Position numbers and translations under genes: made by a program
From: Lacrimispora celerecrescens
GTDB lineage: Bacteria; Bacillota; Clostridia; Lachnospirales; Lachnospiraceae
DNA length: 48,765 nucleotides
NCBI RefSeq assembly: GCF_000732605.1
Contig: NZ_JPME01000039.1
Coordinates: forward strand, 1-48,765
Direction of reading: 5' to 3'
In this document: positions 1,630-7,434 of the stretch, piece by piece
Position numbering within the stretch: position 1 is the first letter of the stretch
Layout of the letters: each line of letters opens with the position of its first letter
The notes under the pieces: model-generated
Seen by the model: the letters and a program-made list of their open reading frames with translations, nothing else
Database searches by the model: none
Told to the model about the DNA's origin: nothing

Positions 1630-2019
1630 TCAGCTTAATTCTTTTGCCAAATCCCTAATTTTTGTCTCAATAACACGGATTGTTTCAATAAATTCTTGAT
1701 CGTTTTTTCCAGTTGGGTCGCTCAATCCCCAATCCTCACGGCGCTTACAGGGTAGGAATGGGCATTGGACGTTACAACCCATAGTCACCACGATGTCCAC
1801 GGGCGGAATTTCTGACAAGAGCTTACTATACTGTGTCGCTTCCATATCAATATTATAAAGCTGTTTCATTAGGCGCACAGCGTCTTGATTAATTTTAGGT
1901 TTGGTTTCCGTCCCTGCCGAATAGCACTCCATAACATCACCTGCAAGATGGCGGCCTAATGCCTCTGCAATTTGGCTGCGGCAAGAATTATGAACACAAA
2001 TAAATGCTACCTTTACCAT
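1630..2019 (-). CDS. arsC: Arsenate reductase, low-molecular-weight phosphatase type
   Basis: This 129-residue protein reduces arsenate to arsenite in the cytoplasm so the efflux system can remove it. The N-terminus carries the phosphatase-loop signature CX5R (C8-VHNSC-R14, then S15). A distal Asp-Pro (LSDPTGK) supplies the general acid of this fold. The resolving cysteines lie in MGCNVQCPFLPC; their spacing differs from the S. aureus enzyme, so which pair forms the relay disulfide is not certain. It is the last gene of the ars operon, 13 bases after arsA. Length is normal for the family (about 130-140). Confidence 0.92.
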   Translation of the reverse strand: MVKVAFICVHNSCRSQIAEALGRHLAGDVMECYSAGTETKPKINQDAVRLMKQLYNIDMEATQYSKLLSEIPPVDIVVTMGCNVQCPFLPCKRREDWGLSDPTGKNDQEFIETIRVIETKIRDLAKELS

Positions 2020-2032
2020 ATCATTTGTCCTT

Positions 2033-3769
2033 TCAAAGTGTTAATAAACGGTCGCCTTTGATTTCTTCGGCACTCCATGAAATTAATGCAAATTTACCAT
2101 CAGCATGTTTATCAACACGATTAAGCCATTCTACCTCATTTGCCGCCTTTGCTGCCAACATAGGATTGGTGGTACCTGTGCCGTACAAGGATTGGTTGAT
2201 AATCCACCATTGCGCAGATATACCAGCTCGCTTCAAATCGTCCTCCAAACGCAATGCCTCGTAAACAGGTGTTGCTTCGGGCAAAGTTACAATAAGAACT
2301 TCGGTTTCGTCAGATTTCAGTCTTGGTAGAAGCTTCTGAACGGATTCCGGGATTTCACCTTTTGTTCGCTGTATTTCATGATTGTAACTTTGAGTGGACT
2401 CCAGCAAAAGAAGAGTATGGCCAGTAGGTGCCGTATCAATCACCACTACCTGATCGTCGGCTTTATCAACTATTTCTGCAAAGGCACGAAACACAGCAAT
2501 TTCCTGAGTACAGGGAGAGCGTAGATCTTCCTCAACATAGGCAATATCTCCATCGCTCATACCAGACGCACGGGCCTTACCGATTACTTCGGACTGGTAC
2601 TTTTTCAGTTCTTCGGCCTCGTCGATATGGCTCATAGAAATGCCGCAGTTTTCGTCCAGTACAAATTTCAGATGTGCGGCGGGGTCGGTGGTTGTAAGAT
2701 GAACTTTTTCTCCGCGCTTTGCAAGGCCCAAAGCCACAGCAGCAGCAATAGTAGTCTTTCCTACGCCACCTTTGCCCATCGTAAAAATAACGCGCTTACC
2801 GCTTGCTGCCAGTTCGTCGATCACATGATTCAACGTGGGTACATGAACGGCGTTTAGCGTTTCGGTGTGTACAGTTACATGATCTGTATTCAGTAAAGCA
2901 CGCACATTTTCAAGCCCTGTGACGTTATAGGCACGTAAGGGTACCATATGGAGAGGCAGCGTTTGCAAACTATCGGGCATAACGCTAAGTGCTGCCTGCT
3001 GTTTTTCATACAGGTTCAAAGAAAGCGAATCGCTATATTCAGTCAGCACACCATTGATAATCAGCATTTGATTGCGGACCCCTAGTGAAGAAAGCTCGCC
3101 GGAAGCCCGTGCTGCTTCTTTGAACGGTGATGTTTCTGGGCGTGTTACAAGAATTAATGTAGTCAGGTTCCCATTTGCCAGAGTTTCCACAGCCTCCTTA
3201 TAAATTGCTTTTTTGCTCTCCAAGCCGGAAAGTTGGCCCAAACAGGACGCACCGTGAGTGCTCTCGCTGATAAAGTCACTCCATGCTGATGGAAGCTGAA
3301 GCATACGTAGGGTGTGACCGGTGGGGGCGGTGTCAAAAATAATATGGTCATATTCCTTTTGTACCTTGCTGTCTGTGATAAAATTGGAAAATTCATTGAA
3401 CGCTGCAATCTCCACAGTGCAGGAACCGGAAAGCTGTTCTTCCATGTTAGCGAGAACAGCGCCAGGAAGTTTGCCACGATAAGGAGCAATGACGCTTTCC
3501 CGATATTCTGCAGCGGCTTGTATTGGGTCGAGATTTGCCACAAACAAATTAGGCACATCAGGAATCGGAGTCCCCTTGTTTGTTAGCTCTAGTGAGAACA
3601 CATCCTGTAAATTAGAAGCTGGATCGGTACTGATTAGCAGCACCCGCTTACCGCTGTCTGCCAGAGACACAGCAGTGGCGCAGGCAACGCTGGTTTTACC
3701 AACGCCGCCCTTGCCAGTATAGAAAAGGTATTTTGTAAGTCTGATAGTACGAGGGTCGAACAAATTCAC
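2033..3769 (-). CDS. arsA: Arsenite-transporting ATPase ArsA
   Basis: ArsA is the soluble ATPase that energises arsenite efflux and takes As(III) from ArsD. The 578 residues form two homologous halves, each with a deviant P-loop (GKGGVGKTS near residue 18 and GKGGVGKTT near 332) and the switch motif DTAPTGHT. The three metalloid-binding cysteines known from the plasmid enzyme appear in context: GSCTVEIA, GASCLGQ and SPCTQEIA. The start is GTG at 3769, one base after the arsD stop, so the two are probably translationally coupled. It pairs here with Acr3 rather than ArsB, as is common in Firmicutes. Confidence 0.95.
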   Translation of the reverse strand: MNLFDPRTIRLTKYLFYTGKGGVGKTSVACATAVSLADSGKRVLLISTDPASNLQDVFSLELTNKGTPIPDVPNLFVANLDPIQAAAEYRESVIAPYRGKLPGAVLANMEEQLSGSCTVEIAAFNEFSNFITDSKVQKEYDHIIFDTAPTGHTLRMLQLPSAWSDFISESTHGASCLGQLSGLESKKAIYKEAVETLANGNLTTLILVTRPETSPFKEAARASGELSSLGVRNQMLIINGVLTEYSDSLSLNLYEKQQAALSVMPDSLQTLPLHMVPLRAYNVTGLENVRALLNTDHVTVHTETLNAVHVPTLNHVIDELAASGKRVIFTMGKGGVGKTTIAAAVALGLAKRGEKVHLTTTDPAAHLKFVLDENCGISMSHIDEAEELKKYQSEVIGKARASGMSDGDIAYVEEDLRSPCTQEIAVFRAFAEIVDKADDQVVVIDTAPTGHTLLLLESTQSYNHEIQRTKGEIPESVQKLLPRLKSDETEVLIVTLPEATPVYEALRLEDDLKRAGISAQWWIINQSLYGTGTTNPMLAAKAANEVEWLNRVDKHADGKFALISWSAEEIKGDRLLTL

Positions 3770-3770
3770 C

Positions 3771-4148
3771 TTAGCAGCAACCCCCTTTACAGCAGCAGCT
3801 ATCGCTACTTTGTGCCTTTTCCACTGGTTTTCCCAGCAGGTCGGCAGGTAGGCCTAACCACTCCGTAAACTCCGCATTGGTGGGGTATTTGCCGGTCAAA
3901 ACGATCTTTCCGTCCATTACGGTAACGGGTAAACCGTCCGGACCTTTGTCGTTAATGAAGTCATTCACGACTTTATTATTCACAAACTCCATAGGTGCGC
4001 TGTTGAGATTAAAGCGATCAACGGTTACGCCATGCTTTTTCAACGTGTCAAGAACAGTAGAGATACGAAGCAATTCTGGGTCAACCCCTACTCCGCAAAG
4101 TCCAGTCGAGCAGCACATAGCAGGTTCAAAAATTTGCATTGTTTTCAT
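3771..4148 (-). CDS. arsD: Arsenic metallochaperone ArsD
   Basis: ArsD carries As(III) to ArsA and can act as a weak repressor. The start chosen is ATG 4148, because AGAAGG lies 8 bases upstream and the protein then begins MKTMQIFEPAMCCSTGLCGV, the standard ArsD start. The essential cysteines fall exactly at 12, 13 and 18. The C-terminus adds two further cysteine clusters (SCCCKGGCC), seen in many full-length homologues. The open frame extends 46 codons upstream, but that extension has no ribosome-binding site and does not resemble ArsD. The product has 125 residues. Confidence 0.93.
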   Translation of the reverse strand: MKTMQIFEPAMCCSTGLCGVGVDPELLRISTVLDTLKKHGVTVDRFNLNSAPMEFVNNKVVNDFINDKGPDGLPVTVMDGKIVLTGKYPTNAEFTEWLGLPADLLGKPVEKAQSSDSCCCKGGCC

Positions 4149-4296
4149 AAAATTACCTTCTTTCATTAAATTTATTTTAGAATCGCGTCCCGTGAGGAAG
4201 CGTTCTAGATTAGCAGGAAGCGTGTAGGGGAGGCTATTATGCGGGACCCCTCCATAAATTGTACGCAAGATACCATCTATAACCATTACTTTTGGG
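4149..4296. other. Gap between arsD and the repeat-protein gene, no gene seen
   Basis: This 148-bp gap inside the ars operon is in frame with arsD for most of its length but shows no convincing start or domain. It holds a weak imperfect hairpin (AGGGG / CCCCT near 4229-4256). No copy of the ArsR operator was seen here. Confidence 0.4.
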
Positions 4297-4485
4297 TCAG
4301 TTTAAACCACACATATTGTTTACGTTGTACTTCTTTGCACTATCCTCTGATACTCCATTCATATTGTTTAAACTATATGGAGTTTTTATATCATTTGTGG
4401 TACTGTTCATATTATTTAGCCTATAAATAGCCTGCTGGTTGTTTGACACATCATTCATGTTATTAATGCTCAATTCTCCAACCAT
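4297..4485 (-). CDS. Small tandem-repeat protein of the ars operon, unknown function
   Basis: I do not recognise this family. The start is ATG 4485, with AGGAG 7 bases before it, giving 62 residues; the longer open frame lacks a site. From residue 7 the protein is built of three full 16-residue repeats and one half: INNMNDVSNNQQAIYR, LNNMNSTTNDIKTPYS, LNNMNGVSEDSAKKYN and VNNMCGLN. Each begins with a hydrophobic residue then NNMN, and has Tyr at position 15. There is one cysteine, no signal peptide and no membrane segment. It lies between acr3 and arsD on the same strand, 34 bases after acr3, so it should be arsenite-inducible. Any role in metalloid handling is inference. Confidence 0.7.
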   Translation of the reverse strand: MVGELSINNMNDVSNNQQAIYRLNNMNSTTNDIKTPYSLNNMNGVSEDSAKKYNVNNMCGLN

Positions 4486-4519
4486 ATAAATTCTCCTTAT
4501 CAATGTGACCCTGCTAAAG

Positions 4520-5581
4520 CTATTGTTTGACATTGGGTTCTGGGAACCAATGGGTGGTTTTATTTGCTATTTTCACAAGAAAAAGCATTACGGGTACTTC
4601 AGTCAAAACCCCAACGGTAGTAGCAAGCGCAGCGGCGGAGCTGGTACCGAACAGGGCGATTGCCACCGCGACAGATAGTTCAAAAAAGTTTGATGCGCCG
4701 ATCATTCCAGCTGGTGCGGAAATGGAGTAGGGCAGCTTCATCAGTCGGGCAGCATAGTAAACGATAAAGAAAATCAGAAACGTCTGAATAATCAGAGGTA
4801 CAGCGATTAAGACAATGTGTAGTGGATTGCGGATTATAGTTTCGCCTTGGAACGCAAAAACCAGTACAAGCGTTAATAATAGTCCTATCGTTGTAATACC
4901 ATCAAATTTTTTAACAAAAGAATTGCTAAAATATTCTTCACCTTTCTTTTTAATGACCAGTGTACGGGTCAGCATTCCACCTGACAGCGGAATTACTACA
5001 AACAGCACTACCGATAAAATTAGAGTATCCCACGGTACTGCAACATTGGAAACACCAAGCAGGAATTTTACAATGGGTACAAAGGCTACTAAAATAATAA
5101 GGTCGTTTGTTGCTACCTGTACAACGGTATAAGCAGGATTCCCATTCGTTAGGCTGCTCCACACAAAAACCATGGCAGTACATGGAGCAGCTCCCAAAAG
5201 TACCGCTCCTGCCAGATATTGCGTTGCCAAATCTGGCGAAATAAATGCTTTGAAAATTACAAAGAAAAAAAGTGAAGCTAATGCATACATTGTAAATGGC
5301 TTAATAACCCAGTTAGCAATCCATGTGACATACAACCCTCTGGGATTTTTTCCGACATTTTTAATACTTTGAAAATCTACTTTCATCATCATAGGGTAAA
5401 TCATCAGCCAGATTAAAACTGCCATCGGTATAGATACTTTGGCATACTCAAACTGATTCAGAAAAGCAGGAATAGCTGGCAAATATTTTCCTATTATTAC
5501 CCCCACTACCATGCAAAGAATAACCCATACGGTAAGATATTTTTGAAAAAAACCTATACCTGTTTGTTTTTCGGATTTCAT
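4520..5581 (-). CDS. acr3: Arsenite efflux transporter, ACR3 family
   Basis: Acr3 is a ten-helix membrane carrier that exports arsenite. The 353 residues show the expected alternation of hydrophobic helices and the conserved stretch GAAPCTAMVFVWSSL, whose cysteine (near residue 133) is essential in characterised members. The region APAGMIGASNFFELSVAVAIA is also diagnostic. Length matches the family (about 350). AGGAG lies 9 bases before ATG 5581. It is the second gene of the operon, 111 bases after arsR, and an extra copy of the arsR operator motif lies in that gap. Confidence 0.95.
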   Translation of the reverse strand: MKSEKQTGIGFFQKYLTVWVILCMVVGVIIGKYLPAIPAFLNQFEYAKVSIPMAVLIWLMIYPMMMKVDFQSIKNVGKNPRGLYVTWIANWVIKPFTMYALASLFFFVIFKAFISPDLATQYLAGAVLLGAAPCTAMVFVWSSLTNGNPAYTVVQVATNDLIILVAFVPIVKFLLGVSNVAVPWDTLILSVVLFVVIPLSGGMLTRTLVIKKKGEEYFSNSFVKKFDGITTIGLLLTLVLVFAFQGETIIRNPLHIVLIAVPLIIQTFLIFFIVYYAARLMKLPYSISAPAGMIGASNFFELSVAVAIALFGTSSAAALATTVGVLTEVPVMLFLVKIANKTTHWFPEPNVKQ

Positions 5582-5692: not shown

Positions 5693-6010
5693 CTATATAT
5701 CACCACCTTTACGATGGCAAATGCAATCGGGTTTTGAAGTGAATATCTCCCCTAACTGCTGATAAAAAGCTTTTAGGCGTTCATCATTCAATGAGTAATA
5801 AATCCATTTACCCTCGGGCCTTGCTTTCACTAAACCAGCGCTCATCAATACTTTCATATCATGGGATAGGGTTGGCTGGGTAATATGAAATCTCTCCAAA
5901 ATATTACAGGCGCACAGTTCACCGCAAGAAAGCATATCAACAATTCGTAATCGTTTTGGATCGGACAAAGCCTTAAGGACTTTGGCATTCTCAATATATT
6001 TTTCTTCCAT
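5693..6010 (-). CDS. arsR: Arsenic-responsive repressor ArsR
   Basis: This 105-residue winged-helix repressor belongs to the ArsR/SmtB family. The first part contains LKALSDPKRLRIVDML and the metalloid-sensing motif ELCACNI (C33 and C35), matching the CxC site of plasmid ArsR. The recognition helix is ITQPTLSHDMKVL, followed by the wing GKWIYYSL. The C-terminus holds an extra CIC pair. Binding of As(III)/Sb(III) is expected to release it from DNA. It is the first gene of the operon and sits just below the operator, so it is autoregulated. Confidence 0.93.
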   Translation of the reverse strand: MEEKYIENAKVLKALSDPKRLRIVDMLSCGELCACNILERFHITQPTLSHDMKVLMSAGLVKARPEGKWIYYSLNDERLKAFYQQLGEIFTSKPDCICHRKGGDI

Positions 6011-6375: not shown

Positions 6376-7434
6376 TCAATTTGTTTCACGTAGTTTTACC
6401 TTATTTCTGGCACTGCGCCGGCGTTCGTCTTCCAAAGCAGCGTAGTGTTTTTTGGTGGTGTTGACATCTGAGTGTCCTAAAACATCTGCAACCAGATAGA
6501 TGTCCCCGGTTTCTTTATACAGACTTGTTCCATAAGTGCTTCGCAGTTTATGTGGTGTGATCTTTTTCAAAGGTGTTACGAGTCTAGAATATTTCTTTAC
6601 CAGATTTTCAACGCTGCGGACTGCGATCCGTTTCTTTTGAAGGGATAGGAAGAGGGCTTTTTCATGACCTTCCTCAGGAATGACGAAACTGCGTTCGTCC
6701 AGATAATCAAGAAGGGCATCCTCAACTTCAGTACCAAAGTATACGGTGACTTCCTTTCCTCCCTTTCTATGAATCCGGATCCCGCCATTTTTTAAATCAA
6801 TATCATCGACATCAAGTCCGACACACTCAGATACCCGGATCCCAGTTCCGAGCATAAGAGTCAATAGGGCCAGGTCACGGATTTTAGTTTTCGCATGATA
6901 AGCCTTTTGCTTCTCTGTTAAAGATTCCCCACTTTCTACTTCATCAAGCAAGAGAGCTACTTCATCAATATCCAACCGGATAATATCCTTTTCATGCAGC
7001 TTTGGAAGCTGCACCAGAGCAGCGGGATTTGTTTGAAGCCGCTCATTTCGGTAATAATAATTATAGAAGCTCTTTAAAGAAGAGACTTTTCGCATGATTC
7101 CTCGTTCTTTGTTGGTTACTTCCTGATTTTTATCATTAAAACGGTATTTTAAATATTCCATGTATTCTTCGATGTCCACAACCCGAAGTGAATCCAGGTG
7201 GTCTAAAGTAATATCTTGAACCTGAAGTTTACCTATAACAGGGTTTTCCTTTATTAGAAAGTCAAAAAATACTCTTAGATCATAAGCATAAGCGATTCTG
7301 GTTCTGGAAGAAGTGCGAGGTTCAATTCCCCTGAAGAAATCTCCGCAGAAATTGGGAAGTTCCTTTACCAACTGGCGCAGGTGTTTTACGTTTTCAATAT
7401 CTTTTTGCTGATGGTAGGAGAGAGAAGAACTCAT
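6376..7434 (-). CDS. Tyrosine recombinase (XerC/D/XerS-like integrase)
   Basis: The 352-residue protein has an N-terminal SAM-like core-binding domain (about 10-135) and a C-terminal catalytic domain (about 150-345). The full catalytic set is present: R200 (GTGIRVSE), K224 (RKGGK), H295 and R298 (HKLRST), H321 (LGHSD) and nucleophile Y331 (KKHYAAL). Size and layout resemble XerS-type single recombinases and Lachnospiraceae Xer paralogues more than phage integrases, which usually carry an arm-binding domain. It could resolve chromosome dimers or act on a local site. No mobile-element cargo is visible, but an 11-bp inverted repeat with a 16-bp spacer lies about 250 bases upstream. Confidence 0.88.
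   Translation of the reverse strand: MSSSLSYHQQKDIENVKHLRQLVKELPNFCGDFFRGIEPRTSSRTRIAYAYDLRVFFDFLIKENPVIGKLQVQDITLDHLDSLRVVDIEEYMEYLKYRFNDKNQEVTNKERGIMRKVSSLKSFYNYYYRNERLQTNPAALVQLPKLHEKDIIRLDIDEVALLLDEVESGESLTEKQKAYHAKTKIRDLALLTLMLGTGIRVSECVGLDVDDIDLKNGGIRIHRKGGKEVTVYFGTEVEDALLDYLDERSFVIPEEGHEKALFLSLQKKRIAVRSVENLVKKYSRLVTPLKKITPHKLRSTYGTSLYKETGDIYLVADVLGHSDVNTTKKHYAALEDERRRSARNKVKLRETN

Follow-up and report, generated by a model that had tools for sequence, protein, structure and literature searches.

A 62-residue repeat protein encoded between acr3 and arsD in Lacrimispora celerecrescens belongs to an unnamed family of small four-unit proteins

The small protein encoded between acr3 and arsD in the stretch of DNA analysed here (the window, 48,765 nucleotides of Lacrimispora celerecrescens contig NZ_JPME01000039.1) represents the ars branch of a family, as yet unnamed, of small proteins with mostly four units; the family is not specific to ars operons. 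The repeat is better described as a branch of this sparse family than as an arsenic invention, glycerol operons being its commonest context here. An earlier note, made from the sequence alone, had drawn attention to the gene; its observation is confirmed and its interpretation is partly supported. What is new is the sequence family, not a proven mechanism.

The repeat gene and its operon

Read along the reverse strand, the gene order is arsR, acr3, the repeat gene, a DUF2703 remnant, arsD, arsA and arsC (Table 1), and both the translation and the models matched by the neighbours agree with the placing of a 62-residue product between acr3 and arsD. We infer control of the operon by arsenite from the leading position of arsR. 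The arsC product matched the NCBIfam arsenate reductase models below cut-off only. In genome G409 the acr3–arsD slot holds a complete DUF2703 domain, within a 335-residue open reading frame that runs into arsD without a stop; in G408, judged by eye, only a DUF2703 remnant is apparent, as in the window. Two further ars operons, in G406 (L070) and G408 (L086), have 91–97% protein identity to that of the window, with no acr3 match between arsR and arsD. A 352-residue gene at 6376-7434 on the reverse strand, which looks by eye like a tyrosine recombinase/integrase, adjoins the window's operon; the operon may belong to a mobile segment.

Table 1. Features of the repeat gene and of the ars operon around it, in window coordinates
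Feature	Position	Strand	Basis
arsR-type (ArsR/SmtB-family) regulator, first gene of the operon	5693..6010	-	NF033788 over NCBIfam cut-off
acr3 (arsenite efflux transporter), immediately 5' of the repeat gene	4520..5581	-	TIGR00832, 385.7 bits
Shine-Dalgarno AAGGAG, 7 nt 5' of the repeat-gene ATG	4493..4498	-	sequence
Repeat gene, 62 codons and stop; ars type of the 4 x 16-residue NxMN family	4297..4485	-	sequence, homologues, dN/dS
Unit 1, INNMNDVSNNQQAIYR	4420..4467	-	translation
Unit 2, LNNMNSTTNDIKTPYS	4372..4419	-	translation
Unit 3, LNNMNGVSEDSAKKYN	4324..4371	-	translation
Unit 4, cut short, VNNMCGLN; Cys replaces second Asn	4300..4323	-	translation
C-terminal remnant of a DUF2703 (thioredoxin-fold) gene, in the gap between repeat gene and arsD	4149..4295	-	tblastn, 82% over 49 residues
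arsD, metallochaperone	3771..4148	-	NF033727 over NCBIfam cut-off; PF06953
arsA, pump-driving ATPase	2033..3769	-	TIGR04291 over NCBIfam cut-off
arsC-type arsenate reductase, low-molecular-weight phosphatase fold	1630..2019	-	PF01451 over Pfam cut-off

The translation of the gene (protein P0001) reads MVGELSINNMNDVSNNQQAIYRLNNMNSTTNDIKTPYSLNNMNGVSEDSAKKYNVNNMCGLN, followed by a stop. The motif (I/L/V)NNM(N/C) begins at residues 7, 23, 39 and 55, and Tyr occupies position 15 of all three full units, which bears out the description of three 16-residue units and a part unit given in the earlier note. That note called the repeats exact: the word holds for their spacing, which is 16 throughout, but not for their letters, 17 of 46 positions (37%) being shared from one unit to the next. 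This identity at a lag of 16 compares with a mean of 4.3 matches in shuffled sequences; 17 matches were reached at that lag by none of 100,000 composition-preserving shuffles and at any lag from 5 to 31 by one of 20,000, and every other lag in this range gives six matches or fewer in the protein itself. Tandem Repeats Finder called no DNA tandem array at the gene. The ribosome-binding site is present as the note had reported, and a purine-rich site of like kind also precedes the G176, G350 and G408 copies. The G+C content of the repeat gene is 0.32, against 0.40 for acr3 and 0.47 for each of arsD and arsA.

A wider family with all-or-none cysteine pairs

A second copy lies in the same genome, on contig C15 (L002 1489-1692; L052 7993-8196), where it encodes a Cys-paired protein of 67 residues, beginning MKIKKMDINNMNGITEDEDTTCGLNDMNC, between DUF1667 and dhaK of a glycerol operon. 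P0001 finds this copy at an E of 0.0014, and a profile made from ars-type and Cys-type sequences (A6) lists both kinds; most of the support for these matches comes from the repeated motif and its register. The C15 copy as query matched 153 proteins at E<=1 and the profile of both kinds 355 at E<=0.01, with 120 matches listed in each case. Among the matches listed are proteins of Lachnospiraceae bacterium, Roseburia, Pseudobutyrivibrio, Brotaphodocola and Clostridiales bacterium, all named 'hypothetical protein'.

We collected 184 proteins, among them that of the window and a translation from L057. Exactly four pattern matches are present in 134 of them, and the spacing between successive motifs is 16 in 403 of 503 cases and 15 in 71. 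The family consensus is (C/Y/F)-(G/S/A)-(L/I)-(N/T)-(D/N)-M-N-(C/G/A)-(L/V/I)-x-acidic linker-(K/T)-(T/S), and Met is present in 634 of 687 pattern-matched units, a count of matches to a loose pattern that includes false sites (one in P0001 and one in P0007). The window protein follows the family rule of four units at a spacing of about 16 with the core (L/I/V/W)-x-(N/D)-(M/L)-N, the second Asn being replaced in unit 4 as given in Table 1. One collected protein, P0129, has 168 residues and eight pattern-matched units, and looks like two tandem repeat proteins in one frame.

Searches of family libraries gave nothing above the cut-offs of Pfam and NCBIfam and no PHROGs match, and no relative was found among PDB sequences at E<=1. 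We rejected the weak Pfam hits of P0001 (Nuc_recep-AF1, E 0.033; DUF5568, E 0.096) and the CFEM hits of 10 of 73 members (best 0.026), all of which are below cut-offs and inconsistent. The 73 members touched 11 Pfam families at E<=0.1; their NCBIfam hits, in three families with one member each (best 0.029), were likewise set aside.

By whole-genome sampling the family is sparsely distributed. P0001 found matches in 4 of 392 genomes of the order and in 6 of 25 of the genus at E<=1, and the profile in 2 of 391 genomes of the class and 5 of 348 of the family, these being counts from a loose first-pass screen that may miss members. In three other genera, picked for having a hit, the Cys-type profile matched 7 of 10, 3 of 4 and 7 of 58 genomes. 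A DNA scan for three RAYATGAAY boxes matched 18 of 299 family genomes; the repeat family was recognised in G000, G642, G571 and G534, while the remaining matches look like unrelated low-complexity repeats, and a reversed control also matched several genomes.

Most units of the relatives in glycerol and ahpC contexts carry a pair of cysteines spaced as C-x6-C, formed by the residue two before the motif start, which is position 15 of the preceding unit, and by motif position 6. Across the 687 pattern-matched units, a set that includes related sequences, both positions are Cys in 407, neither in 277 and one only in 3, so that 684 of 687 are all-or-none; after dereplication to 374 distinct contexts the numbers are 167 both, 204 neither and 3 one only (167/2/1/204 as a two-by-two table). 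This pattern says that the two positions in all probability act jointly as a loop closure, for which a disulfide, a metal site and a covalent link are alike possible. Tyr at position 15 of the window protein is thus not arbitrary, given that relatives have the first Cys of the pair there. Outside unit 1, Cys-free loops mostly pair Phe, Tyr or His with Ala, Gly or Ser. The window protein has L/D, Y/S, Y/G and Y/G at the pair positions and no Cys there in any unit, so it too obeys the all-or-none rule, and its Tyr15 with Ser or Gly at position 6 is the Cys-free form of the clasp.

We also followed the pair on a rough tree of 127 distinct proteins with exactly four recognised units, from which P0001 (a false fifth match) and P0006 (one atypical unit) were left out. 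By parsimony the unit 3 pair changed state 8–9 times, 8 of the changes falling on branches shared by the two positions, and unit 1 has no Cys pair in any of the 127 proteins. Repeated cores in a short chain, together with a first unit that is always free of Cys, are what one might expect of a RiPP-like multi-core peptide precursor that is matured and exported, with unit 1 as its leader. This we consider very unlikely, since no maturase or peptide exporter gene was found beside the repeat gene (neighbourhoods read by eye, Pfam searches of 19 selected neighbours and a homology map), and no signal peptide is seen by eye.

The genomic contexts of the relatives were compared at 22 other loci, comprising two sets of stretches (8 and 14) and leaving out the ars-type stretches, L057, L064 and L065, and the Cys-type copy of G408 (L013). 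Fourteen lie in glycerol operons (three genera), six lie opposite ahpC (one genus), one is at a contig edge (L053) and one is an orphan (L110). In its full form the glycerol operon consists of a Trx/AhpF-like gene, the GlpP antiterminator gene, glpK, glpF, GlpA-like and GlpB-like genes, DUF1667 and the repeat gene, which in the window's genus has dhaKLM next to it on the same strand. DUF1667 precedes the repeat gene in 13 of the 14, and glpF does so directly in G406. Of the 20 loci in glycerol or ahpC contexts, 13 have a Trx (Thioredoxin_3)/AhpF-like gene, and several of the remaining ones end before its place; at the ahpC loci it is present in five of six, the sixth being cut by the contig end. 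The orphan, at L110 5985-6203 on the reverse strand (G1062), is a family member without Cys pairs (RRYTLTNMNG, RRYSLTDMNG) near a transporter-like gene, and the six other copies found in its genus face ahpC. A further divergent Cys-free member was found in G977 (L057), and neither of these two Cys-pair-free relatives has an ars or a glycerol context. By eye, a putative TPP riboswitch lies between the repeat gene and the transporter-like gene of L110.

These contexts bear directly on what the repeat could do in an ars operon. The earlier note suggested that Asn/Met-rich repeats might bind soft metal ions, but N-x-M-N is also kept in the glycerol and peroxide clusters, so Met is not tied to metalloids; As(III), moreover, prefers thiols to thioethers. 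Metal binding by Met as an arsenic device was rejected as the main reading on the same ground, the motif being equally kept in these relatives. An arsenic-specific sensor or carrier could instead depend on the single Cys of the window protein, Cys59, in the last loop (NMC), which would bind As(III) either unaided, within a homo-oligomer, or jointly with ArsD or Acr3 cysteines, the repeats serving only to oligomerise. This Cys is invariant across the seven rows of the ars-type alignment A4, in which the other loops have Asn, and the gene sits between those for a transporter and a metallochaperone. As(III), however, usually takes three thiols and there is one per chain; P0007, a more distant protein left out of A4, has Asn in place of the Cys; and since the Met/Asn motif is common to glycerol- and peroxide-linked relatives, the repeat itself is not an arsenic device. 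We therefore regard a sensor or carrier as unlikely. The prevalence of Met in the units, and the peroxiredoxin and Trx/AhpF-like genes near the Cys branch, would also suit a sacrificial buffer in which Met and Cys take up oxidants and Trx/AhpF-like and Msr enzymes restore them. Neither a 16-residue register nor conserved Asn would be needed for such a buffer, and a Cys pair is lacking from the window copy, so we consider this explanation unlikely too.

Distribution, selection and exchange among ars operons

The repeat gene recurs inside ars operons of different genera. Genome copies from the same genus are 87% (G408), 85% (G409) and, for the distant G397, 49% identical to that of the window, and copies beyond the genus are found in G350 (same family, other genus; 67%) and G176 (another family; 79%). 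Acr3 immediately precedes the gene, and arsD comes after it, in the window, G408, G409, G350 and G176. Homologues in other ars operons, on which the earlier proposal hung, are thus found in the same slot, and alignment of the ars-type copies shows the repeats to be kept. In G397 an acr3 fragment (L064 7762-7949, E 6e-18) comes just before the repeat gene, and the 16-kb stretch around it gave no arsD, arsA, arsC or arsR match; this copy, open behind a broken acr3, seems to have outlived its ars operon. Counting the other five operons and the G397 fragment, all six ars-type genome loci examined stand behind acr3 sequence, a link that rests on genome loci and that owes partly to shared descent and to exchange of a block of acr3 tail plus repeat gene.

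The metagenomic homologues include P0002 and P0003 (78 residues, 85%), P0006 (61, 43%) and P0007 (97, 41%), together with P0004 and P0005, which are truncated repeat proteins of 41 and 39 residues, one of them named Lacrimispora sp. by its source. From these truncated forms the gene seems to decay in some strains. In a survey of the genus, 20 of 25 genomes yielded 23 arsD loci, of which 3 have the repeat gene and 20 have no copy; both arsD loci of G397 are among those without it, and the closely related operon of G394 has only a short gap in the acr3–arsD slot. Elsewhere the slot holds an acetyltransferase-like frame (L069 and L075, by translation) or a DUF2703 gene (L087); DUF2703 matches came from G409 and G397. 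The repeat gene is conserved in some ars operons, as an accessory and dispensable component.

Among the five recent copies (window, G176, G350, G408 and G409), pairwise omega is 0.23–0.51 in ten comparisons, and amino-acid differences amount to 0.070 at motif positions against 0.264 in linkers. Against G397 the Nei-Gojobori value has reached its upper limit and cannot be relied on for a gene of this length, so codons were counted directly: of 25 same-residue codons, 16 are different in the window copy, with the motif kept. Given that omega is below 1 and that the motif was kept while the G397 codons changed, we conclude that the repeat gene is very probably a protein-coding gene, as predicted, under purifying selection. 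The conserved entity could in principle be RNA or DNA rather than protein, and synonymous divergence between the recent copies is indeed unusually low. With omega clearly below 1, the motif kept through the codon changes in G397, the same amino-acid repeat in distant relatives and no Rfam match within the gene (there were two sub-threshold hits only, both outside it), this is hard to credit. A translation-attenuation leader or RNA element was rejected because the gene is mid-operon and constrained at the protein level.

The low synonymous divergence is confined to one part of the operon. For the repeat gene pS is 0.28 against G176 and 0.29 against G350, while acr3, arsD, arsA and arsC give 0.67–0.80, and the lowest pS in 190 overlapping 62-codon windows of these four genes is 0.60 (G176) and 0.63 (G350). 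Same-residue codons that differ from G176 number 7 of 43 in the repeat gene and 153 of 262 in acr3, and the similar block of the alignment extends into the acr3 tail. Since only 7 of the last 25 same-residue codons of acr3 differ, the acr3 tail seems to travel with the repeat gene. The simplest reading is that the two were swapped between operons later than the remaining genes; the alternative is constraint on nucleotides. A comparison of G176 with G350 is a mosaic, with 0.13 for the repeat gene, 0.24 for arsD, 0.37 for arsA, 0.64 for arsC and 0.66 for acr3.

Such exchange raises the possibility that the gene is a small passenger, carried with the acr3 tail by recombination between operons and without a role in arsenic resistance. 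The gap in pS between it and every core gene, the accompanying acr3 tail, its presence at only 3 of the 23 arsD loci of the genus and the G397 copy that stands without a complete ars operon can all be read in this way. It is harder to square with purifying selection, with a kept ribosome-binding site, and with the same slot behind acr3 sequence in G397 despite the changed codons there, and on balance we think a passenger rather unlikely. Mobile-element cargo was rejected, as the ars-type query was unmatched in plasmids, phages and viral contigs; in one of these searches 76 stretches fit a pattern, none of which was confirmed.

A candidate adaptor and its nearest known analogues

Two AlphaFold2 runs, using alignments of 73 and 78 rows, gave mean pLDDT values of 59 and 64 and pTM values of 0.21 and 0.20. 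The stacked scaffold proposed in the earlier note, or a solenoid, is thus unsupported by any confident fold, a result that does not exclude one, just as low confidence does not prove disorder. A flexible scaffold of several motifs is conceivable.

Our best explanation, to which we give a probability of roughly 0.4, is that the ars branch is a multivalent, mostly disordered adaptor, redox-clasped in its relatives and permanently unclasped in the window copy; we infer the disorder, the chemistry of the clasp, the partner and the adaptor role itself. Four alike loops, a Cys clasp and a thioredoxin/AhpF-like gene nearby together suggest a conditionally ordered multivalent adaptor. Each member, of some 60–70 residues in four 16-residue units, would present in every unit a loop of eight residues, x-(G/S)-(L/I)-x-(N/D)-M-N-x, carried on a polar and flexible linker. 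Of these four loops, two or three are Cys-paired (C-x6-C) in the members linked to glycerol and peroxide genes, and the pair probably clasps the loop; the thioredoxin/AhpF-like protein encoded nearby may open and close it. In the ars-linked members, Tyr or Phe with a small residue replaces the clasp, which would leave the loops permanently unclasped. With the clasp lost, redox control through it would be gone from the ars branch, and as the Cys pairs are absent the window protein falls outside the redox part of the model. The adaptor would gather or tune a partner protein through its four alike motifs, and for the window copy the likeliest partner would be Acr3 or another protein of that operon.

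A more speculative extension of this adaptor model concerns the partners. The gene follows acr3 here and elsewhere sits in the operon of glpF, and GlpF-type channels conduct As(III), according to PMC1440775, so a membrane-protein partner is conceivable. One might then picture a modular adaptor family, switched by its clasp in glycerol and peroxide operons and locked unclasped in arsenic operons, whose partners could be metalloid-passing membrane proteins and which could tune the flux of As(OH)3 or glycerol. We offer this as a long shot.

The nearest analogue that we know of is CP12, described in PMC9406205 as a conditionally disordered adaptor of the Calvin cycle, of 80 residues, in chloroplasts and cyanobacteria; the same text reports that some CP12 proteins without the N-terminal Cys pair still form the complex. 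Like CP12, the family members are small, and their glp- and ahp-linked relatives are acidic, have Cys pairs at loop spacing and have a thioredoxin-type protein encoded close by. The CP12 core is AWD_VEEL, and CP12 binds GAPDH and PRK according to redox state. No AWD or VEEL string occurs in the 184 collected proteins, and no hit to the CP12 Pfam domain was found among 73 family members at E<=0.1. The pairs of the relatives are C-x6-C, while those of CP12 are separated by 7 or 8 residues; the window protein, with one Cys, has no disulfide-loop pairs of the CP12 type. The family also differs in its four-fold 16-residue repeat and in its organisms and operons. On the sequences, membership of CP12 is excluded, and we use CP12 as a working analogy only.

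Closer to hand, ArsD is also a small soluble protein of the same operon, but the repeat protein has no match to PF06953 or NF033727 and has one Cys. DUF2703 proteins share the position of an accessory gene in the acr3–arsD slot, and differ in having a thioredoxin-like domain with a Pfam model that the repeat protein does not match; PMC6514093 presents DUF2703 as a thioredoxin-type protein that may partner ArsC in Rhodococcus. The 'CGLNDMNC' proteins, for example HFG64_09250 [Lachnospiraceae bacterium] (P0016; source name, hypothetical protein), have the same architecture of four 16-residue units and the N-x-M-N core, and are homologous by profile search; unlike the window protein they have two or three Cys-paired loops, acidic linkers and, where seen, other operons. 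Among open-licence papers, judged by title and the start of the abstract, no description of the family was found, in keeping with the remark in the earlier note that no described ars component resembles this protein, and the motif string LNDMNC gave no paper in the open-licence literature. A term search of a survey of ars-operon transporters (PMC4435449) found neither 'small protein' nor 'Clostridi'.

The family amounts to hundreds of predicted small proteins without an accepted match in the libraries and PDB sequences searched. Its sharp sequence rule and its recurring places in operons make its function testable by a few deletions. If the window copy is a passenger, it would clearly illustrate how a tiny gene moves together with an acr3 tail. 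If instead the members are redox-clasped adaptors, the family would be a second, unrelated solution to the task that CP12 performs in photosynthetic organisms, and its ars branch would show how such an adaptor may be refitted to a new pathway through loss of the clasp.
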